Source: Fibrobacter sp.
GTDB taxonomy: Bacteria > Fibrobacterota > Fibrobacteria > Fibrobacterales > Fibrobacteraceae
Direction: 5' to 3'
DNA length: 40,791 nt
Assembly: GCA_012523035.1 (NCBI GenBank)
Contig: JAAYJH010000059.1
Span: 1 to 40,791, forward strand
The position numbers and the translations under genes were made by a program. Below are positions 3,116 to 40,791 of this stretch, piece after piece. Position 1 is the stretch's first letter. Each line of letters starts with the position of its first letter. The notes under the pieces are model-generated. The model made no database searches and was not told the origin of the DNA. It worked only from the letters and a program-made list of their open reading frames with translations.

Positions 3116-3139
3116 GAAGTTTCAGAAACGCCTGGCTTT
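3116..3139 (-). repeat. Dispersed 24-base repeat, copy A
   Basis: Read on the minus strand, this is AAAGCCAGGCG, a 2-base spacer (TT), then TCTGAAACTTC. It is identical to copy C except for one spacer base. It contains the small palindromes GCC-A-GGC and GTTTC-T-GAAAC. It sits between the gap terminator and the spacer's decayed frames. Confidence 0.75.
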
Positions 3140-3185
3140 ATCTAAAAAGTTTATCCACAAGAAACACAAATATTATCTTTATAAA

Positions 3186-4364: not shown

Positions 4365-7300
4365 ATGAAGCATTTTCTCTACTTTTTCTTCCATTTACTG
4401 TTTATTTTCAACTTGTTTTTTCTTTTTTCGTGTGTTTCCACAGAATCTTCTCTGCAAAAATCAAGTCGCACAAGTGCTCTAACACCAAACGAAAGTATTT
4501 ATAACGATGAACCAAACTATGAAGACGGGGCTAAATTCAGTTTAAATGAATCTCAATCTCTTGTGATTAAAAGAGAGTTTTACGAACTTGAACTGCCAGA
4601 TCATGACTGGAAAGTGCTTAGTGATTTAAAAACAAGCCAGGCGCTTCTGGAACTTCATCATTCAAAAAAAGGACTTAGAGCTGTGGTCCAAGCAATAGAA
4701 ATCCAGGACCAAACTCCTCAGTTAATGGACAGAGCTCAAATAGAAATTCAAAACTTTGAAACTATGGGGAAAAAAGCCACTCACACGGCTATCGAAGCAA
4801 AAGAACGCTTGGGGTTAATGGGAGTGGCATGGGAGGTTTCCGGAGAAAAGCTAGAGTCACCTTATCAAGCTACTGGTTTTATAAGCATCTCTGATGGCAC
4901 TCTTTATATGCTTTCTATCTCAAAAACAGACTCATTTATCCAAATAAACGACCTTATCAAAGAATGGGAAGCCTTATACAAAAGCTTTAAAATAAGTGCT
5001 ATTTCTAAAGGAGAAACCATCCCTTCAATTTCTCCAGAACCAGTTCAAGAACACCGTTCCTCTTCACTTGGATACCAGTGGAAGACAACTGATACCTTAT
5101 GGCACCACTGGAATAGCATTGCGGCTCAAAGTGCATATTCAGATTTGGTGCTCACCAATAAAGACGAAGATCTGAGTTTGTTTGTTTATGGAGCTATGGT
5201 TTCACCAGATGAAGTCAATGCCAACGATTTATTCAAAGTTTTATTGATCCGCTTGGGAGTGGAGCCAGATTTTGAAAGTATGAGTATAAAAAAAGAGAGA
5301 GGCAAAGATGGCAATCACTTTGTACAGCATTTTGAGTTTACCAGAAATGTGCGACAATATGATTTCAAATATAAAGGGAAATTTATTTGGGATAATGGTA
5401 GAGGTATTTTGATTGCAGCCTGGACTCAAGGAGTCTTATTTGAGCCCTATAAAAAAGTCTTAGAGACTGCAATTAATGCCCTGGAATTAGAGGATAAACC
5501 TAGTGTTTTAGACGAAAAACAAAAAAAGTTCAATGCTGCGATTTTAAATCAGGTGGGTTTATTGCGTTTGTCAGAAAATCAACCTTTGGTGGCCTTGAGT
5601 TACTTTGAAAGGGCCAATCAATTAGACCCTAGCGAAGCCCTTTACTTGATTAACTGTGGTTTTATATACCAACTTAAAGAGCTCTATGGGCCAGGTATTA
5701 ATTATTTTAAAAAGCAATTGGATTTGGTGCATCAAAATGAAAAACTTCTAGCTATTTTAGGTGAAATGTACGAAGAAAGTTTCGACTTTGCGAATGCTCG
5801 AAAATATGCTGAATTGGCTCTACAATACGCTCCAAATAATCCAGAACATGTGATCAACTTGAGTGATGCCCTGTGGGGCTTAGGCCAAAGGACACAGTCT
5901 CTATTGGTGGTGCAAAGATTGTACGACAAGCAGCCATCGGCGAGACTTGGAGTTTATTTGGCGAAAACTTATATGGGTTTAGATCAATACGCCGAAGCTG
6001 TGGAAGTCCTTTACCACTCCAAAAAGCTCTTTGGAATCCATACCGACTTGGGCTTGAATTTAATTGATGCCTTGTTCTTTTTAAAGCGATACGATGAAGC
6101 CCTTGCAGTGAGTGAAGAATTGCTTCAAAAAGACAAAAAAGATTCTCGAATTTGGTTGAGTCGAGGTAAAATACAATTCCATCTTAAAAACTATAAACAT
6201 GCAGAAAAGAGTTTGAGTCAATCGATACAAATACAATCAGAAAATGAAGAGGCAAAAAGTTATTTATCTGCTACTAAAGCTTTTTTAGGAAAAGCCGACA
6301 ATCGCACCCTACAAAAAGCTATTCAGCCCATAGAACCACGACAATCAAACTTAAAGTCACTGGTCCAGCACTCTCTACAAAAAAAGGCTAAAAAAGATAA
6401 GTTTCCGGCGATGATTCACTATGATCGCTCTTTATTAAAAGCAGATAAAGGAAAACCATGGATACGAACCGAAGAACTTTTTATGGAAATTTTAGACCAG
6501 AGGGGAACGGCTATTTATCAAGAATTTGCTTTTGATTTTTTACCTGGATTTGATCGATTATTCTTAAATGCCTTAGAAGTTTATGATTCTAATATGAAAC
6601 TCAAATACAAAGCCAGCCTTCAAAATGCTTATATCACTTATGCTACAGAGATCGGGGCTAATAATGAGTCACAAACAGCCCACTTTCCACTCCCCCCTTT
6701 AGAAGTTGGAGATTTCATTTATTATCAAATCTCAAGACTCAGCTTAGAAAACAAAGGGATCATCCCCTACACTAACTATGTATCCAGCAAAGATATCCCC
6801 GTCGGTGAAACTTCTTTTAAAATTTATGCCGACACCTCTCGATTTGTGACCGAAGAATACGGCCCTTTACAACGCATTGATTATGCCAATGCTCGAGAAT
6901 GGAAAATACAAGAGCCCGTTGTGATTCGACAAGAAATGTATATGCCTGTTTATAGAGATTTTGGTGCAGGATTATTATTGACCGGAAAGCAAGAGTGGAA
7001 AGCGGTTGGAGAAGACTACGAGAACATGATTCGTCATCAATTTAAAACAGCTATTTCGGTAAGAGAAAAAGCAATAGAATTGAAAGGGAGTCGATTACAA
7101 AAAGAAGCTATTCAAGAAATCATTCGTTTTGTTAGAGAACAAATTCGATATAGAGATGTAGCTTTTGGTGGACACTCTTTGATACCACAGACTTCTGAAC
7201 TCACTCTTAGAGAACATCGTGGAGACTGCAAAGACCAAAGTTTACTATTAAAAGAAATGCTAGGGGTCATTGGAGTGCCTAGCCATTTGGTGGCTATTCA

Positions 7301-13278: not shown

Positions 13279-14225
13279 TTTTTATATTGACGATTTTTTC
13301 CAAATTGTATGGGATAAGTTAAAAAGAATTTAGTTTCTGGATACACTTGAATGCTAGGGGCAGGGAACTTTATATAGTTCAGGGATTTGACCAAGAGTCT
13401 AGACCAGTTTTTTTGGGGTTTAAATGCTTCTAAATCATAATCCAATGCCAAATAAATCTCTCGTTTGCCTTTTCCTACTCCATTGACAAAAACTCCCTCG
13501 TCAATACTAAGACCAACAGCAAAGGCAAGCCAGTCTGGATAATATTTTCTTGCTGGAGTTGGTAAAAGCCGATATACCTTTAAAGAAAGCCAATAAGTTT
13601 GATTCACATAATCATCAGTGAAAATTTTTGTCTCACTTTGACGATAATAAGCTTTGGTGTTGATCCAATAACTCATTTTCAAGTCAAAATATTTAAAAGC
13701 GGGAATGTACCTTTTGGCCATAGGGTAAAAGCCGCCTAGACTGCCTGCAAATACATCAAAAAAACTAAAGCCCCAAGATGGAGAAAAACCATCTTTTATA
13801 TCGATGCCTACATGTGTTAAAGAAGCAGAAAGCCCTGCAAATAAATAAGAATGAAATTCAGATAGACCAGTCCAATAATAAGACTCATAGAAAAACTCTC
13901 CTAACGCAACTCCCGATGCAAAATGACCCATTTTATCCAAATTTAAAGAGTAATGAAAATCGTTTTTTATGGGGTCTAAATGAAAGCCCCTTTCTTGGTC
14001 TTCCCACCAACCCTTTTGAAACACAAGAGCATAGGCGGCAATGAAAGAAACGCTGGTTAAAGAAGCTACCCCCACAAATCGAGGGATAGAAAACTCCCTC
14101 AAAGAGTCTTGAGGGTCTTCGGCTCGGTAGTCAAATAAGGAGTCTCTCCATTCTGAATTAGAAACAGCAAATAAACTGTGAGATGAAATGAGTAAAGTGA
14201 GTATAAAAAAAAATGGTGGCTTCAT
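13275..14225 (-). CDS. DUF2279-family envelope protein
   Basis: A 316-residue protein with a cleavable signal peptide (MKPPFFFILTLLISSHSLFA). The DUF2279 pattern is present: GWWEDQERGFHLDPIKND, LNLDKMGHFASGVALGEFF, a short hydrophobic region and DIKDGFSPSWGFSFFDVFAG. The conserved acidic and histidine residues (DKMGH, DGFSPSWGFS-FD) suggest a membrane-associated enzyme or a structural protein, but the family has no known function. The C-terminal third looks strand-rich. Its start overlaps the stop of the second FabF gene by four bases, so it is probably translated from the FabF operon transcript. A lipobox is not seen. Confidence 0.7.
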   Translation of the reverse strand: MKPPFFFILTLLISSHSLFAVSNSEWRDSLFDYRAEDPQDSLREFSIPRFVGVASLTSVSFIAAYALVFQKGWWEDQERGFHLDPIKNDFHYSLNLDKMGHFASGVALGEFFYESYYWTGLSEFHSYLFAGLSASLTHVGIDIKDGFSPSWGFSFFDVFAGSLGGFYPMAKRYIPAFKYFDLKMSYWINTKAYYRQSETKIFTDDYVNQTYWLSLKVYRLLPTPARKYYPDWLAFAVGLSIDEGVFVNGVGKGKREIYLALDYDLEAFKPQKNWSRLLVKSLNYIKFPAPSIQVYPETKFFLTYPIQFGKNRQYKN

Positions 14226-15457
14226 GATTCTTTACCAAAAATCACTACACTATTGTGCCCTCCAAAGCCCAAACTATTGCATATGGCATATTCAAACTCA
14301 TAATCAATGGATTCTTTATCGACCACATCGATAATAATATCTGGGTCTTTTTCTTCTATGTTTTTAGATATGTGAATCTTTTGATCGCGAAGAGAAAGGA
14401 TTGTCACTATACTTTCCACAGCAGAAGCTGCCCCAAGTAAGTGCCCAATCAGAGATTTAGTGGAGTTTATTTTTAATCCTTCGATTTTACCATCATAAGC
14501 GTTATAAATCGCAATAGATTCAGCGATATCACCTCTTAAAGAAGAGGTGCCATGAGTATTAATGTATCGAAGCTGTTGAGGTTTTATTTTTGCTTCTTTT
14601 AGTGCATACCGAATAGCATTGGTCACCGATTTGCCGTCTTCTCTAGGTGCCGAGATATGATAAGCATCGGCTGTTAAAGAAACCCCTGGGACACTTGCCA
14701 AAATTTTTGCCCCACGATTTTCGGCGTGAGTACGGCTTTCTAAAATAAGCACCCCCGCCCCCTCTCCCAACACAAAGCCATTTCTATTTTTATCAAAAGG
14801 CCTGGATGCAGTTTCTGGACTATCATTCCTTCGACTTAAAGCATTCATTGCCGAAAACCCACTCAAAGCCAAAGGTCCAACGGACTCTTCACTTCCCCCT
14901 GCAATCATAATATCAGCACGACCTAATCGAATTTGATCTACAGCTGAAATTAGAGAATAATTAGAAGAAGCACAAGCCGATAAAGTGGCAAAAGAAGGCC
15001 CCATCCAACCTAAGCGAATAGAAATGAAATTAGAAGCTAAATTTGAAATAACACTTGGCATAAAATAAGGAGATAAATACTTTGGTCCTTTGTTGGCAAG
15101 CGTTAAGGAGCCATTATAATAAACATCCACTCCCCCCATACCACTAGCCAAAATCACACCTGCTCTGGAATGATTCACCGTTTTTAAATCTAAACCGGAT
15201 TGCTCAAGGGCCGTCATCGCCGAATGCATTGCATACAACACATTTCTTGGATAGCGTTTCAGTTCCTTTTCTGTAAAATAAGGTGTGGGGTCAAAGACTT
15301 TGACTTCTCCTGCAAAATGAACAGGATATTCATCTGTATTGAACCTTTCTATATTTGAAACACCCGATTTACCAGCCAATAGATTTTTCCATAAAACCTC
15401 GGGGTCATTGCCTAAAGGGCTAACACACCCCATACCAGTTACAACAACTTCTTCCAT
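14222..15457 (-). CDS. fabF: Beta-ketoacyl-ACP synthase II-like, second tandem copy
   Basis: A 411-residue thiolase-fold condensing enzyme. The triad is intact: Cys162 in LSACASSN, His302 in NTHGTSS and His339 in KSLIGHLLGA. The start is placed at 15457 because GCAGGTAG precedes this ATG and the encoded MEEVVVTGMGCV is identical to the start of the first copy except at one residue; a longer frame from 15502 lacks such support. It differs from copy 1 at sites usually conserved in FabF, notably SSLRGD for STPLGD and IGHL for TGHM. This may mean altered acyl specificity or a pathway outside bulk fatty-acid synthesis. It lies 78 bases after copy 1 and overlaps the DUF2279 gene, forming a probable three-gene operon. 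Confidence 0.88.
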   Translation of the reverse strand: MEEVVVTGMGCVSPLGNDPEVLWKNLLAGKSGVSNIERFNTDEYPVHFAGEVKVFDPTPYFTEKELKRYPRNVLYAMHSAMTALEQSGLDLKTVNHSRAGVILASGMGGVDVYYNGSLTLANKGPKYLSPYFMPSVISNLASNFISIRLGWMGPSFATLSACASSNYSLISAVDQIRLGRADIMIAGGSEESVGPLALSGFSAMNALSRRNDSPETASRPFDKNRNGFVLGEGAGVLILESRTHAENRGAKILASVPGVSLTADAYHISAPREDGKSVTNAIRYALKEAKIKPQQLRYINTHGTSSLRGDIAESIAIYNAYDGKIEGLKINSTKSLIGHLLGAASAVESIVTILSLRDQKIHISKNIEEKDPDIIIDVVDKESIDYEFEYAICNSLGFGGHNSVVIFGKES

Positions 15458-15535
15458 CGCACTACCTGCAAAAAAAACAAAAAACACTCTAATATAAAGC
15501 AAAAATCTTAAAGGATTTAAGCTTTATATTAAAAT

Positions 15536-16768
15536 TTAATTTTTTGCAAAAACAACTACACTATTATGACCACCAAAACCAAAACTATTAGACATTGCGT
15601 AATCAAAGCTATGATTAGATGCTCCATTTTCGCAGACATCCAAAAGGATTCGTTCATCTTTTTCAAAAACATTTTTGGTGGCATGGATTTTTTGATTCAA
15701 AATAGATTGAACTGTAACAATGCCTTCTACCGCCGAAGCAGCTCCCAACATATGTCCAGTCATCGATTTAGTCGCATTGACTTTCAAATGGTCTACCTTG
15801 CCTTCAAAAGCCTTGTATATAGCAGAACATTCAGCCACATCTCCTAAAGGTGTAGAAGTACCGTGTGTATTGATATAGCCTACTTTATCTATAGAAATCC
15901 GAGCATCTTTTAAAGCATTTTCTATGGATAATTTAACGCCTTCTCCATCATCTCTAGGAGCAGAGATATGATATGCATCTGCACTCATACCAACACCCGC
16001 GATGCGAGCTAAAATTTTTGCTCCTCGTTTTTCGGCGTGACTTTTGCTTTCTAAAATTAAAACACCCGCCCCTTCACCTAAGACAAATCCATCTCTATTT
16101 TTATCAAAAGGTCTCGAAGCTTTTTCGGGATCATCATTTCGAGTGCTAATGGCACGCATTGAAGAAAAGCCTGCAATGCCCACTGGACAAACCGCTTCTT
16201 CTGTTCCTCCAGCAATCATGACATCTGCTCTTCCTAAGCGAATTTGATCTACCGCAGAAATAATAGAGTGATTCGATGAAGCACAAGCTGATACCGGTGT
16301 GAAACTTGGCCCCATCCACCCTAAACGGATCGATACTTCTCCTGCCCCCATATTCGAAATGACCATAGGGATAAAGAACGGTGAAACTCGACTCGGTCCA
16401 CGATTAGCAAGAGTCACAGAAGTATTGTAATAAACCTCCATACCACCCATGCCACTAGCCAAAATAACCCCAGCTCGAGTTGGATCCACAGATTTTGGAT
16501 CTAAAGCTGCTTGCTCTAGCGCATTCATGGCCGAATGAACCACATATTGAATATTACGAGAATATCTTTTGGCATCACGAGGAGTGAAATAAGGTGAAGG
16601 ATCAAACTCTTTGATTTCTCCTGCAAAATGCACATCGTATGCAGAAGTGTCAAAACGAGCAATATTGGATACACCAGATTTTTCGGCTAAAAGGGATTCC
16701 CACAACTCAGTAACCGTATTACCAAGAGGTGTAACACATCCCATTCCGGTGACAACAACTTCTTCCAT
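15536..16768 (-). CDS. fabF: Beta-ketoacyl-ACP synthase II, first tandem copy
   Basis: A 410-residue condensing enzyme that extends acyl-ACP with malonyl-ACP. Cys162 is in VSACASSN, His302 in NTHGTSTPLGD and His339 in KSMTGHMLGA, matching the E. coli Cys163/His303/His340 triad by one-residue offset. The C-terminal gating loop reads SFGFGGHNSVVVF. The canonical motifs make this the more likely housekeeping copy. AGGAA stands ahead of the ATG. The gene starts a minus-strand operon with a second FabF and a DUF2279 protein. No acpP, fabD, fabG or fabH is nearby. It is divergent from orn across 249 bases in which I see no distinct control element. Confidence 0.93.
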   Translation of the reverse strand: MEEVVVTGMGCVTPLGNTVTELWESLLAEKSGVSNIARFDTSAYDVHFAGEIKEFDPSPYFTPRDAKRYSRNIQYVVHSAMNALEQAALDPKSVDPTRAGVILASGMGGMEVYYNTSVTLANRGPSRVSPFFIPMVISNMGAGEVSIRLGWMGPSFTPVSACASSNHSIISAVDQIRLGRADVMIAGGTEEAVCPVGIAGFSSMRAISTRNDDPEKASRPFDKNRDGFVLGEGAGVLILESKSHAEKRGAKILARIAGVGMSADAYHISAPRDDGEGVKLSIENALKDARISIDKVGYINTHGTSTPLGDVAECSAIYKAFEGKVDHLKVNATKSMTGHMLGAASAVEGIVTVQSILNQKIHATKNVFEKDERILLDVCENGASNHSFDYAMSNSFGFGGHNSVVVFAKN

Positions 16769-33571: not shown

Positions 33572-35662
33572 ATGAAAAAAAGTATCCTATTTTTAGTTTT
33601 TTGTTTGACTAGTATTGCACTAGCTCAGACTGGTTTAAAGGGAGGAAGTGATGGTTTACATCAACAAAATGCTTTTACCCTTGGTCAATGGTCTTTATCA
33701 GCGGGTTTTGGCGGTAGTCTCGCTACCGACAACTTTTACATGGTAAAAGACGGTCAATACTCTTATCCCAATGGGAAAAAAGTAAATTTAGATTTAATCT
33801 CTCCTTCTTTTAGCACCAATATTCATCTAGCTTTGGGCCTTTTAGACTTTTTAGATGTGGGTGTTCTTTTACCTCTACACCTCGATATGGTAAATCCCAC
33901 TTATAAAAAGAGTGCTCACCTTGATGGAGGAGCTATGGGTGATTTGGAGTTTTGGGCTAAATACAGAATTCCTTTTGCTAAAGATGATTTTTTTCAGCTA
34001 GCTTTTATGCTTGGAGCTACTGCACCTACAGGTAAAAAAGGTGTGGGTATGCATCCACGAGAAGTATGGTACATCAATAGCTGGGGTAACACAGACCCAT
34101 ATACAGCTAATCAATGGGCTTTGCTCGGGAATATGATTTTCACTCTTGATTTCACCAAAAAAGAAGTTCCACTGCGCTGGAACACCAACCTTGGTTTTGC
34201 AGCTCCTTTTAATGAAGGTGCAAATACACTGGTTTGGGCCACTGGTCTAAATTATATTGCTTCTGCCTATACAGATTTATTCTTTGAAGTTTCTGGAGAA
34301 ACTCGCGTAGAAAAAACAGCCATTCCAAGAGAAGTTCTCGATGATCCCTTTAGATTCACTCCTGGTGTTCGTTTCCACCTCCCTTCTAATTTTGACCTAG
34401 CTTTAGGAATAGATGTTGGTTTGAATGCATTTTCAAACATAAGCTATAAATACAATAAAGAAAACGCTTACCCAGTGAAACGCACAAAATATGGGGAAAC
34501 TATCCGCTACGAAGTGGTAAGTACCCCTCACATTGCAGCTTCTGCTGTGCTCACTTGGAATTTGAAATTCACCTCTAAGGACTCAGATGGAGATGGCGTG
34601 CCCGACGAAATAGATCAATGTGCTAGAACTCCTGAGGGTGTGCCTGTGGATTCTGTCGGCTGTCCATTAGATTCTGATAAAGACGGTATTATAGATTATT
34701 TAGACAAATGCCCCAATACTCCAGAGGGAGTTCAAGTAGATTCTACCGGCTGTCCATCTGATATAGATAAAGATGGTGTTCCTGATTATTTAGATAAATG
34801 CCCCAATACGAAAGAAGGTGTAGAAGTAGATGCCGAAGGGTGCCCAATGGACGCCGATAAAGATGGAGTCCCTGATGAAAAAGACAAGTGTCCAAACACT
34901 CCAATTGCTGCCATTGTGGACGATGAAGGGTGTCCTTTGGATTCTGATAAAGATGGTGTTCCCGATTATCTGGATAAATGCCCAAATACTCCTGCTGGAT
35001 TCCCAGTAGACTCTGTGGGTTGCACATTAGATACTGATAAAGATGGTGTTCCCGATTATCTGGATAAATGCCCAAATACTGCGACTGGAATTCCTGTGGA
35101 CTCTACCGGATGCCCTAGAGACACTGATAAAGATGGTGTTCCCGATCACTTAGATAAATGCCCAAATACTGCGGCTGGAATTTCTGTAGACTCTAACGGA
35201 TGCCCAATAGATTCTGATAAAGATGGCGTTCCCGATCACTTAGACAAATGCCCGAATACCTTGGAAGGTGTCAAGGTGGACTCTGTTGGATGCCCTATTG
35301 ATAAAAAGCAAGACTTGAGTCAATTGAATAAAGGGATTAATTTTAAAACTGGTTCTAATAAATTAACCAATGCAAGTTACGCTACTTTAGATGATATTGT
35401 AGCTTTGCTTCGTCAAATTCCTAGTGCCAACTTAGAAGTCCAAGGACATACTGATAAAACAGGGAGTGATAAAATAAACTTAAAACTCTCTCAAGCTAGA
35501 GCTCAAACAGTTGTGGATTACTTTGTTAAAAAAGGAATCGATTCTAAACGAGTAAGAGCGATTGGGTATGGTTCTGAACGGCCTATTGCAGATAACGCAA
35601 CTAAAGAAGGTCGCGATCAAAATCGTCGCGTAGAGTTAATTCCATTTGAAAATGTAGATTAA
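33572..35662 (+). CDS. OmpA-family outer-membrane protein with thrombospondin type-3 repeats
   Basis: A 696-residue protein. The signal peptide is MKKSILFLVFCLTSIALA. An N-terminal barrel of about 310 residues follows, with strands such as NIHLALGLLDFLDVGVLLPL. Residues 337-576 are eight 30-residue thrombospondin type-3 repeats of the form D-x-D-x-DGVPD-x-x-DKCPNT ... GCP, which bind calcium. The C-terminal OmpA domain (INFKTGSNKL, GHTDKTGSDKINLKLSQARA, RVRAIGYGSERP, GRDQNRRVEL) anchors peptidoglycan. The repeats form a stiff spacer between barrel and anchor. It is a single-gene unit with a strong terminator and a long divergent upstream region. OmpA-like proteins of this kind are major outer-membrane proteins in FCB bacteria. 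Confidence 0.94.
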   Translation: MKKSILFLVFCLTSIALAQTGLKGGSDGLHQQNAFTLGQWSLSAGFGGSLATDNFYMVKDGQYSYPNGKKVNLDLISPSFSTNIHLALGLLDFLDVGVLLPLHLDMVNPTYKKSAHLDGGAMGDLEFWAKYRIPFAKDDFFQLAFMLGATAPTGKKGVGMHPREVWYINSWGNTDPYTANQWALLGNMIFTLDFTKKEVPLRWNTNLGFAAPFNEGANTLVWATGLNYIASAYTDLFFEVSGETRVEKTAIPREVLDDPFRFTPGVRFHLPSNFDLALGIDVGLNAFSNISYKYNKENAYPVKRTKYGETIRYEVVSTPHIAASAVLTWNLKFTSKDSDGDGVPDEIDQCARTPEGVPVDSVGCPLDSDKDGIIDYLDKCPNTPEGVQVDSTGCPSDIDKDGVPDYLDKCPNTKEGVEVDAEGCPMDADKDGVPDEKDKCPNTPIAAIVDDEGCPLDSDKDGVPDYLDKCPNTPAGFPVDSVGCTLDTDKDGVPDYLDKCPNTATGIPVDSTGCPRDTDKDGVPDHLDKCPNTAAGISVDSNGCPIDSDKDGVPDHLDKCPNTLEGVKVDSVGCPIDKKQDLSQLNKGINFKTGSNKLTNASYATLDDIVALLRQIPSANLEVQGHTDKTGSDKINLKLSQARAQTVVDYFVKKGIDSKRVRAIGYGSERPIADNATKEGRDQNRRVELIPFENVD
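34580..35299 (+). repeat. Eight 90-base tandem repeats encoding TSP3 modules
   Basis: Exactly 8 x 90 bases. Repeats five and six share a run of over 40 identical bases (starting GATAAAGATGGTGTTCCCGA), and repeats seven and eight are close relatives, while the first four are more diverged. This points to recent copying within the right part of the array. Confidence 0.93.
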
Positions 35663-37919: not shown

Positions 37920-38312
37920 AAGTCTCCGACATTGTCTATTCATTTGAAAAGATTGTGGTTAAAAATTTAAATACAAAGCTCTTTCTAAAATAGAAAAAAA
38001 TCATGAAAAACCCAAAATATATAGCTTTTATCTATAAAAGCGTGACACCCTTTAAGGAGTTACTAAGTTATGTTATGGAAAACCTATTTTTCAAGGAAAA
38101 AATCTGATTTTTTTTGAAAATTTAAAAAGCAATGTTCATAAGACTTATTGGAGTGCTATCTATCTTTAAAGCCAGGCGCTTCTGAAACTTCAATCTTCTT
38201 TTTTTTCATTTAAACTTCTGTATGTTAAAATTTCAAGCTTGTTTTTTAAGTTTGACTTTAAATTATTTGTTTTTTACTAAATTTACATTAGTAATTTTAA
38301 AAGGACTTTTGA
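37920..38312. other. 393-base divergent spacer before the GH2-like gene
   Basis: It should contain promoters for the propeller gene and the GH2-like gene. Visible items are GTGACACCCT (38042-38051), whose complement stands before repeat copy B, and repeat copy C at 38168-38191. I see no gene. Confidence 0.6.
38168..38191 (+). repeat. Dispersed 24-base repeat, copy C
   Basis: AAAGCCAGGCG, CT, TCTGAAACTTC; 23 of 24 bases agree with copy A. It ends 121 bases before the ATG of the GH2-like gene and is oriented toward it. Confidence 0.75.
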
Positions 38313-40791
38313 ATGAATACGATTGTAGATCTAAATGGCGAATGGGAATTCCTCTGGGATGACGATGATGTTGGAATTGTGAATCGATGGTATGCGAATC
38401 CTCAAGAAAACACAGAAAAAATACAAGTGCCTCATGTTTGGGAACGCTCTTTTAAGAAAATGTTCTTAACTCAAGATACAGGTTATTATTTTAAACACTT
38501 TTTTGTGGATAAAAATGAGATTTCAAAACGAATTTTTTTGAACTTTGAGAGGATTGCTTCCCATGCTTTGGTATGGCTGAATGGTAAATTGATTGGCGAG
38601 CACTTTGGTTCTTATTCTTCTTTTACTTTGGAAACATCTAAAGCTATTAAATTAGGGGAATCTAATTTTTTGGTGATCCGTGTTGCCAATATTGGTGCTG
38701 CTAATAGTCGTATTGATTTTGGAACTACCGTAGATTTTAAAGGTAAAACCCGAGAACGATATGCACAACCCAAAGAAAAGCCAGTGGGACTTCCATGGAC
38801 TCAATATCCTTTTGGAGGTATTTACGGTAGCGTTTCTTTGACTTTGGGAAATGCCGTTTTTATTTCGGATTTACAAGTTGAACCAGACATCGATCAAGAA
38901 CGAGTCGCTGTTGCCGTTTCTTTTAATAATCCAAGAAATCACTTTTGTAGGCTTAGAATCTTAATGAAAAACCCAAAAGGAGAAGTTTCTGAGATTTATA
39001 AAGATTTAAAAATTGAAAAGGAAAATGGATCTCACCGCTTTAATCTAGAGATCAAAGATTGGAAAGAAGAAGATTTTAAATGGACCTTGGAAAAGCCAAG
39101 ACTGTTCGCAATTGAGGTGCAAATAGAGTCTAAAACAACCAAGACAAAACCAAATCCAGATTATTCTTTTTCTGTGGTTAAAAACTTCGCTTTTAGAAAG
39201 TTTGACTGTATCAAAGGTGATTTTTATTTTAATGACTCTATCATTAAGATCCATGGTCTCCATTATTCACAACACTGGAGTGAAGGAGGTCTTTGGACCA
39301 GTGCTAATGAAAAACTTCGTAAAGATTTACAAAAAGTAAAAAAACTAAACTTCAATGCCATTCGTTCGCCAGGAGCTCCTCTTTCTAACGAGGCTTTGGA
39401 TATTTGTGACGAATTGGGGTTATTGGTTTTTCAAGAATTTCCAGTTCATATGATGCGCTCCACAGATCAAGGTTTAGATTACGCAAAAGATTTAATTAAA
39501 GACATTATTTTAGAACAAAAACACCACCCCTCTATTGTTGCTTGGGTGATAGGTGCAGAAAATGGAACTTTAGTTTTAGAAAATGGGACTAAATTGTTAA
39601 AACATATTGACTTGTTTGACTTGACCAGACCTGCTATTAGTAATTTGAACAGTGTGTATTTAGATAACGAAGAATCATTTGTAAAAGATACAGGGAAACT
39701 AATGGGTATCACTAACGAACGCATATTGCTGCATGCTGCCCATAGACTCCATATTCGAATGAGTCCAAGTGCAAATTTGAGTTATTTTTTATCTTTATAT
39801 GGTTCTAAAGAGGGTGTAGAAGATGTGATTATTCCTGATTCTACTTTGGGAGACAGCCAGTTTCAAGACAACTATGAAAACTTTGTAAAAGATATTAATG
39901 GAAAACTTTTAGTCACATTAAAAAATCACACTTTATTGCCTAAAGACGCCACTAGCTTGAAAGGTCCTCGAGGGAGTAAAAATGATAAAGCTGTGAAAGC
40001 TTTTTATAAACAATTGAACTCTTTTGTAGATGATAAAAAACTCTCTATTTGGTCATCTGTTAAAGACTTTATTGAAAATTCTAAACAAATTGCTATTCGA
40101 AGCAAACTAGCTCAAAGCTCGGCTTTACTGAGCAATCCTCTGGTTGCAGGCTATTTTTTAGACCAATGGGCCGACTTTGGAACCGATTTTTCTGGCTTGA
40201 TGGATGAAAATAGAAAGTCAAAAGATTTAGATGATTTTATTAAAGAATTGACCACTCCTACGAAAATATTAATCTCTGGATTTGAAAATGTGGTGAGTGT
40301 CAATAGCCAAACTACCTTTCAATTGGCCTTCTTAAATCACGATCGGTTCGAAGAAATTGATATAGAACTTTTAATTTTAGACTCTTCTGGTAAAGAAGTT
40401 TTTTCTCAAAAGAAAACGGAGTCTGTGGGTAAAACAAGTCTCATTCCTTTGGGGCTTCATACTATTAAATGTCCAAAAAAAGAAGGGCTCTATACCTTTC
40501 AACTGACTTTGCTTCATAAAGGTAAAAAAACTTATCAAGTTAAAGAAGAGTTGATTGTTATTCAAGAAATTGACTTGAAGTCCGCAATGAAACAAGTTTG
40601 TTTTTTAGACAACAGTGTTGAAACAAAAGACGCTCTAGCTTCTTTGCAAGGTTCGGAAAACATTATTTTTACAGCTAATTTAAGCTCTTGGAACGACGAG
40701 ATTTTAGAAAAAATTGTCGATGCGACTAAGAATAAAGGTAAAACACTTTTACTTTCAGATATGACTAGTGAAGATGTAGAAACATTCAATG
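38313..40791 (+). CDS. Glycoside hydrolase family 2-like protein, runs off the window
   Basis: The frame from the ATG at 38313 (AAGGAC seven bases before) is open to the right edge, 826 codons, so the gene is partial. The N-terminal jelly-roll begins NGEWEFLWDD and includes VPHVWERSF and ASHALVWLNGKLIGEHFGSY, and LPWTQYPFGGIYGSV. A beta-sandwich follows, then a TIM-barrel with IKIHGLHYSQHW, FNAIRSPGAP, DICDELGLLVFQEFP and HHPSIVAWVIGAEN. The segment LVAGYFLDQWADFG matches the GH2 barrel end. In the usual WxxGNE motif the Asn is Ala415 before Glu416, and no clear nucleophile Glu is seen near residue 536. No signal peptide is visible, so the protein is probably cytoplasmic. It could be an inactive or divergent member. 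Confidence 0.82.
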   Translation, partial: MNTIVDLNGEWEFLWDDDDVGIVNRWYANPQENTEKIQVPHVWERSFKKMFLTQDTGYYFKHFFVDKNEISKRIFLNFERIASHALVWLNGKLIGEHFGSYSSFTLETSKAIKLGESNFLVIRVANIGAANSRIDFGTTVDFKGKTRERYAQPKEKPVGLPWTQYPFGGIYGSVSLTLGNAVFISDLQVEPDIDQERVAVAVSFNNPRNHFCRLRILMKNPKGEVSEIYKDLKIEKENGSHRFNLEIKDWKEEDFKWTLEKPRLFAIEVQIESKTTKTKPNPDYSFSVVKNFAFRKFDCIKGDFYFNDSIIKIHGLHYSQHWSEGGLWTSANEKLRKDLQKVKKLNFNAIRSPGAPLSNEALDICDELGLLVFQEFPVHMMRSTDQGLDYAKDLIKDIILEQKHHPSIVAWVIGAENGTLVLENGTKLLKHIDLFDLTRPAISNLNSVYLDNEESFVKDTGKLMGITNERILLHAAHRLHIRMSPSANLSYFLSLYGSKEGVEDVIIPDSTLGDSQFQDNYENFVKDINGKLLVTLKNHTLLPKDATSLKGPRGSKNDKAVKAFYKQLNSFVDDKKLSIWSSVKDFIENSKQIAIRSKLAQSSALLSNPLVAGYFLDQWADFGTDFSGLMDENRKSKDLDDFIKELTTPTKILISGFENVVSVNSQTTFQLAFLNHDRFEEIDIELLILDSSGKEVFSQKKTESVGKTSLIPLGLHTIKCPKKEGLYTFQLTLLHKGKKTYQVKEELIVIQEIDLKSAMKQVCFLDNSVETKDALASLQGSENIIFTANLSSWNDEILEKIVDATKNKGKTLLLSDMTSEDVETFN

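Follow-up and report, generated by a model that had tools for sequence, protein, structure and literature searches.

A single-copy protein of the class Fibrobacteria with GH2 architecture and without the GH2 catalytic pair

A gene at the end of a Fibrobacter contig encodes a protein that has the architecture of GH2 glycoside hydrolases, is missing the catalytic pair of that family, and carries a new conserved motif in the place of the acid/base motif. The gene is nearly universal in the class Fibrobacteria, where it evolves under purifying selection and its products form a single clade. We read the protein, with a probability of roughly 0.6, as a cytosolic, constitutively made pseudo-glycosidase that is kept for binding a sugar or a partner, or for regulation. 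The window is the whole stretch of DNA analysed, 40,791 nucleotides from Fibrobacter sp. (contig JAAYJH010000059.1 of assembly GCA_012523035.1), and coordinates refer to it unless another contig is named.

The open reading frame occupies 38313..40790 on the forward strand, as do all the features within it. It starts with ATG and is open at its 3' end, at the contig edge, after 826 residues. The C-terminus, which the first-pass annotation had reported as missing, was recovered outside the window, where an in-frame piece of 116 codons ending in a stop lies at the start of contig C6 of the same genome (G000:C6:3-350, forward strand, G000 being the genome of the window). Positions 804-917 of the family profile match G000:C6:6-350. 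With one or two codons missing between the contigs, as estimated from the orthologue L032, the full protein would be about 943-944 residues long. No signal peptide is present at the N-terminus as read from the sequence itself, in agreement with the earlier description.

Three Pfam domains occur in the order typical of GH2 proteins. A GH2_N jelly-roll domain of sugar-binding type (PF02837, E=4.4e-17) covers residues 6-124 (38328..38684). The GH2 Ig-like domain (PF00703, E=1.9e-4) covers residues 182-274 (38856..39134), its 22.6 bits falling just under the cut-off of 23. The first half of the TIM barrel, strands 1-4, matches GH2_C (PF02836, E=3.9e-13) at residues 302-441 (39216..39635); this match reaches only positions 6-158 of the 302 in the profile, and no other region of the protein is conserved as well. 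Among 23 orthologues searched at E<=1, GH2_N and GH2_C are found in all 23 and GH2 in 22. The initial call of a GH2-like protein is therefore borne out. Further along, the segment GYFLDQWADF at residues 613-622 (40149..40178) is the counterpart of the last barrel strand, with G613 in 63 of 63 orthologues and D621 in 62. A predicted Ig-like linker follows at about residues 641-745 (40233..40547; boundaries approximate), suggested by strands with pLDDT of about 70-88 around residues 650-745 in an otherwise poor model of L032; Pfam scores for this part lie far below cut-off. That AlphaFold2 model, built from an alignment of five sequences (the window protein and L031-L034), has a mean pLDDT of 40.4 for full-length L032, and the same five sequences gave 35.7 for residues 290-650 of the window protein. 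A C-terminal alpha/beta domain begins at residue 746 (40548..40790), continues on C6, and is common to GH2-like proteins of other phyla. This domain may resemble that of class-I amidotransferases (GATase-like); Pfam gave no match of that kind, and a profile search of the PDB with this domain returned one match, to a repeat protein at E=0.84, taken as chance.

Retaining GH2 hydrolases carry an Asn-Glu acid/base motif on strand 4 and a Glu nucleophile on strand 7. In the window protein the strand-4 segment reads W411-V-I-G-A415-E416-N417 (39543-39563), with A415 encoded by gca at 39555 and E416 by gaa at 39558. Residue counts come from an alignment of 63 distinct orthologue sequences. At column 415, preceding the acid/base, Asn occurs in none of the 63; Ser is found in 38, Ala in 20, and five other residues once each. 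The acid/base column itself holds Glu in 51, Asp in 10, Lys in 1 and Leu in 1. No orthologue has the Asn-Glu pair. At the nucleophile column, 536, neither Glu nor Asp occurs in any of the 63 sequences (L33, I11, G11, V5, F1, M1, R1), so that, with the register as given by the alignments, the strand-7 nucleophile appears to be missing throughout. In the window this residue is L536, encoded by tta at 39918-39920, within KLLVTLKNH (residues 531-539, 39903..39929). The first-pass annotation had named Ala415 in place of the Asn ahead of Glu416, and Leu536 where the nucleophile was expected, and both assignments hold. Its broader statement, that the protein seems to lack catalytic residues, needs amending: the preceding Asn and the nucleophile are missing, while the acid/base Glu416 is itself present in the window.

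The register deserves comment, since the two halves of the barrel differ in how well they align. For strand 4, profile-profile alignment with canonical Fibrobacter GH2 proteins sets A415-E416 on the Asn-Glu of GNE, and at the level of sequence we regard this register as secure. The local alignments with those canonical proteins end at residues 441-442. For strand 7, global alignment with the same proteins sets L536 on the Glu of C-E-Y, and in nine proteins of like architecture from other phyla [ST]E[FY]G falls on T535-L536. When E. coli UidA is aligned globally, its ITEYG comes to lie elsewhere, around residues 564-571; this register of the second half of the barrel was set aside as the product of a low-quality alignment. 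With either strand-7 register, the 63 sequences show no conserved acid at the nucleophile site. Across columns 500-650, Asp or Glu is found in at least 45 of 63 sequences only at 500, 503, 504, 509, 519, 527, 589, 617, 621, 631 and 632.

A new conserved motif, G-x-[ED]-N-G..L.NGxKLL, occupies the position of the former acid/base motif. In the window this rebuilt strand-4 site, as delimited in the alignment of 63, is WVIGAENGTLVLENGT (residues 411-426, 39543..39590), and it replaces the GH2 motif W-x-x-G-N-E. The fast-evolving L061/L142 of genome G114 (family f4), the most divergent member from the class, has lost it and reads GGDLPGG, which shows that not every member of the class has the new site. 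L061 did not enter the profile used for the register alignment. Nor did it enter the count of invariant positions, defined as those conserved in at least 97% of 62 orthologues. There are 58 of these: strands 1-4 (residues 291-441, 151 in all) hold 27, GH2_N (180 residues) holds 15, strands 5-8 (199 residues) hold 7, and the other parts hold 4, 3 and 2. The old acid/base site thus falls where conservation is highest, now with a different motif. At Y318, G354, Q374, G387, G414, N417, N424, G425, S443 and K462 the family residue occurs in none of nine intact relatives (see below), although single positions between 417 and 462 are less sure on account of alignment gaps. Judged from the alignments, the nucleophile strand has drifted.

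Selection has kept the gene, as expected of a pseudoenzyme rather than a relic. Values of dN/dS range from 0.024 to 0.084 in 14 of 15 close pairs, the remaining pair being saturated and not computable, and by this measure the barrel is no less constrained than the remainder of the protein.

The window's genome (2.2 Mb, 99.6% complete) holds a single copy of the gene, which is also its sole match to PF02836. A search with the window protein found a match in 106 of 110 other genomes of the family, the match in G093 being limited to a stretch of 69 residues; the four genomes without a match are 60-77% complete. A profile built from 23 orthologue sequences and applied at E<=1e-30 hits 106 of 111 genomes of the family (the window's included) and 15 of 15 genomes from families f2-f5 of the class, one of which, G116, has the C-terminal part only, at a contig end. 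It also hits 7 of 41 genomes from the other classes of the phylum, by the N-terminal half only, as would any GH2 protein, which brings the total to 128 of 167 genomes. Where a genome has two matches, these are in several cases fragments of a single gene; G101 carries a full copy plus a shorter second one, and in G125 and G090 the second match is a weak GH2. Most orthologues are full-length open frames. One locus, L047 (G112, family f2), has a single TAG within a full-length profile match, reflecting a frameshift, a sequencing error or a true stop. The gene appears to have been passed down as a single copy across the class.

Relatives outside the class were found through the C-terminal domain. 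A profile of this domain matched 10 of 386 sampled genomes, 3 of those being members of the window's family. It was then run against the classes of G312 and G301 (both centres counted), where it matched 3 of 4 and 6 of 141 genomes respectively. Open reading frames around the matches include 14 proteins outside Fibrobacteria that match the family profile at E<=1e-8, a cut-off below which L141 falls; a scan of viral_contigs for more relatives usable in the structure predictions found none. In nine of the 14, Asn-Glu aligns with A415-E416 and [ST]E[FY]G with T535-L536. Asn-Glu is combined with GEEG in L154 and L158, and L140 has Ser-Glu and no clear nucleophile. The remaining two, L136 and L137 (G307 and G443), have lost both motifs and form a clade of their own, possibly a second case. 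Pfam searches of eight outside relatives found the three GH2 domains in the six intact ones and only remnants in L136 and L137.

In the tree, the Fibrobacteria proteins form one clade with support of 100/100, and the order within it matches the family labels. L140, L158 and L142 sit on long branches, L138 nearly so, and L154 was left out. The tree is unrooted, so that the loss of motifs in the L136/L137 clade may be separate from that in Fibrobacteria or shared with it, and losses may number one or more. With both motifs kept in nine of the 14 outside relatives, and Asn-Glu with GEEG in two more, the loss in Fibrobacteria looks derived. Measured against relatives whose activity is presumed from their motifs, the family has lost the residues in question. 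The earlier conclusion that this is not a standard retaining GH2 hydrolase agrees with these counts, 0 of 63 orthologues having either feature and nine of 14 outside architecture-mates keeping both motifs.

Published data may bear on the family through Fibrobacter succinogenes S85. The S85 genome paper gives two GH2 genes in its Table 3, Fisuc_1788, with a signal peptide and a basic terminal domain, and Fisuc_3049, without a signal peptide and with beta-galactosidase activity listed as characterised in that work (PMC3079729). In genus g2, 13 of 13 genomes searched have exactly two PF02836 matches, one canonical and long, the other from the window's family. With two GH2 genes in S85 and one of each type per g2 genome, Fisuc_3049 (FSU_0315) is by elimination, not by sequence, the presumed orthologue of the window gene. 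Synteny backs this link in two or three of eight genomes and in the others does not help or points the other way: in S85, glgB (Fisuc_3103) and a CBM11 gene (Fisuc_3111) lie 54 and 62 locus tags from Fisuc_3049; the corresponding distances of 67-74 kb in G054 and G033 fit the S85 spacing, and they are 30-42 kb in G049 and 229-377 kb in G028, G025 and G046, with the genes on other contigs in G048 and G001. Expression of Fisuc_3049 is given as above the 90th percentile with variation under 5% (PMC6204037). A proteomic comparison of medium, outer membrane and periplasm lists the protein in the periplasm fraction only, in 3 of 3 replicates, and assigns cellodextrin phosphorylase, likewise without a signal peptide, to the periplasm (PMC4668043). 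Fisuc_3049 is probably soluble and cytosolic. An extract of a further paper names only the other GH2, FSU_2288 (PMC6851124).

Gene context is taken as uninformative on function. No operon or sugar genes were recognised beside the gene. Neighbourhoods were compared for loci over 8,500 bases, with L047 left out. Convergent downstream genes encode DUF218, GNAT, TsaD-family and Ddl proteins (Pfam names from L032 only), and by clustering this set recurs, whole or in part, in G003, G005, G010 and several family f3 genomes; genes for ribosomal L21, L27 or both are found upstream in several genera. By tblastn, none of these six neighbour proteins has a match in the window or within the initial 14 kb of contig C6. 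A dispersed short element, TAAAGCCAGGCGYTTCTGAAACTTC, occurs at 38167-38191 (forward strand) and 3116-3140 (reverse strand), both copies lying between listed open reading frames, with a near match at 4634 within a large one. It is probably what the first-pass annotation called repeat copy C. That copy is indeed upstream of the gene but is not tied to it, being one of 31 dispersed copies: AAAGCCAGGCGNTTCTGNAAC has 31 exact matches in its own genome (0 for the reversed control) and 0 in nine other genomes of the family. Elsewhere in the window, 14222-15502 and 15536-16768 (reverse strand) encode adjacent tandem paralogues of beta-ketoacyl synthase, in which stretches of DNA spaced 1311 bases apart resemble each other at 70-82%. 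The frame at 33572-35662 (forward strand) encodes an OmpA-family protein with thrombospondin type 3 repeats; a 90-nt period occurs there seven times, at 34579-35349.

The pseudo-glycosidase reading would run as follows. The ancestor of the Fibrobacteria would have had a GH2 enzyme made up of a jelly roll, an Ig-like domain, a TIM barrel, a second Ig-like part and a C-terminal alpha/beta domain. The residues on which retaining double displacement depends would have been lost from this enzyme, and the barrel would have been rebuilt at the mouth of strand 4 into the new conserved motif. The altered gene would then have been inherited as a single copy. Ordinary glycoside hydrolysis would be absent. 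The half-barrel of strands 1-4 may still form a pocket for a sugar or sugar-like ligand, and the protein may act by binding, as a sensor, as a regulator of a partner or as a scaffold.

This reading draws on the absence of a nucleophile acid and of the Asn, on the 12 of 63 orthologues without Glu at the acid/base column, and on what is reported for the presumed orthologue Fisuc_3049, its lack of a signal peptide and its high, stable expression. The main contrary evidence is the beta-galactosidase activity listed for Fisuc_3049 (PMC3079729), which may stem from background of the host, be a faint secondary activity or mark a genuine departure from the GH2 mechanism. Its reported presence in the periplasm fraction only speaks against a cytosolic location, unless proteins from the cytosol are carried in that fraction; residue 416 has, moreover, stayed acidic in most of the 63 sequences (51 Glu, 10 Asp), and the new motif is gone in G114. 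Were the activity real, the protein could be a working glycosidase with non-canonical residues, using E/D416 with D509, with E375 or by a water-mediated route, and the acids at these columns are well kept (61 of 63 at 416, 61 at D509, 62 at E375). We consider this possible and rather unlikely, given that E375 is shared by eight of the nine intact relatives without being either of their two motif acids, that L058 has Lys at column 416 with neighbouring motif residues intact, that no sequence has an acid at the nucleophile position, and that host background could enter the published activity. Doubtful too is a housekeeping enzyme of GH2 fold, common to the class, that cleaves glycosides or carries out another sugar reaction without a nucleophile, through E/D416, N417 and K427 with D509, even though it would explain the activity published for Fisuc_3049.

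A structural scaffold or partner-binding protein, its pocket free of sugar and its strand-4 motif serving as a protein-protein surface or a fold-stabilising loop, would suit the fully kept five-part architecture and the nature of the residues conserved in the motif, which are Gly, Asn, Lys and Leu rather than aromatic ones that stack on sugars. The clustering of invariant positions in strands 1-4 and not in other domains, with R351 and Y318 kept at strand ends, makes this account improbable. Scarcely any credence attaches to a decaying pseudogene or an assembly artefact: the frame does run off the contig end, but its missing end is in frame on another contig and orthologous frames are mostly full-length, and decay was rejected on the dN/dS values given above.

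A single-copy protein found across this class, which includes cellulose degraders of importance in the rumen, is an obvious candidate for binding and knockout studies; the high and stable expression adds to the interest if Fisuc_3049 is the orthologue. If the published activity is true, it marks an exception to the GH2 mechanism that merits explanation. A phylum-level table counts GH2 genes as beta-galactosidases and enzymes for other beta-linked dimers, the residues passing unremarked in the portion at hand (PMC4704652). In the window's genome, where the gene is the sole GH2_C match, a gene count would report a beta-galactosidase that has no GH2 catalytic pair. In the accessible part of the open-access literature we recognised no description of the missing residues in this family.

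Compared with the beta-galactosidases and beta-glucuronidases of GH2, the family is related, its profile matching PDB entries such as 7xyr (E=1e-45) and 6ed1 (8e-44); it differs in that no NCBIfam model comes near its cut-off (the best, GalA, scores 127 bits against 900) and in that the second half of the window protein's barrel is too divergent for Pfam. The nine intact GH2-like proteins from other phyla (L152, L153, L135, L138, L139, L155, L156, L157 and L159) share the same full-length build, at 228-359 bits with the family profile, but retain both catalytic motifs, which the window's family lacks. Glycoside hydrolase pseudoenzymes are already known, and those of beetle pectin digestion likewise have lost catalytic residues while the gene is kept. 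The beetle proteins belong to an expanded family, whereas the protein described here would be single-copy and class-wide in bacteria; a class-wide, single-copy pseudoenzyme of GH2 fold with a rebuilt site would be a new form of this known kind.
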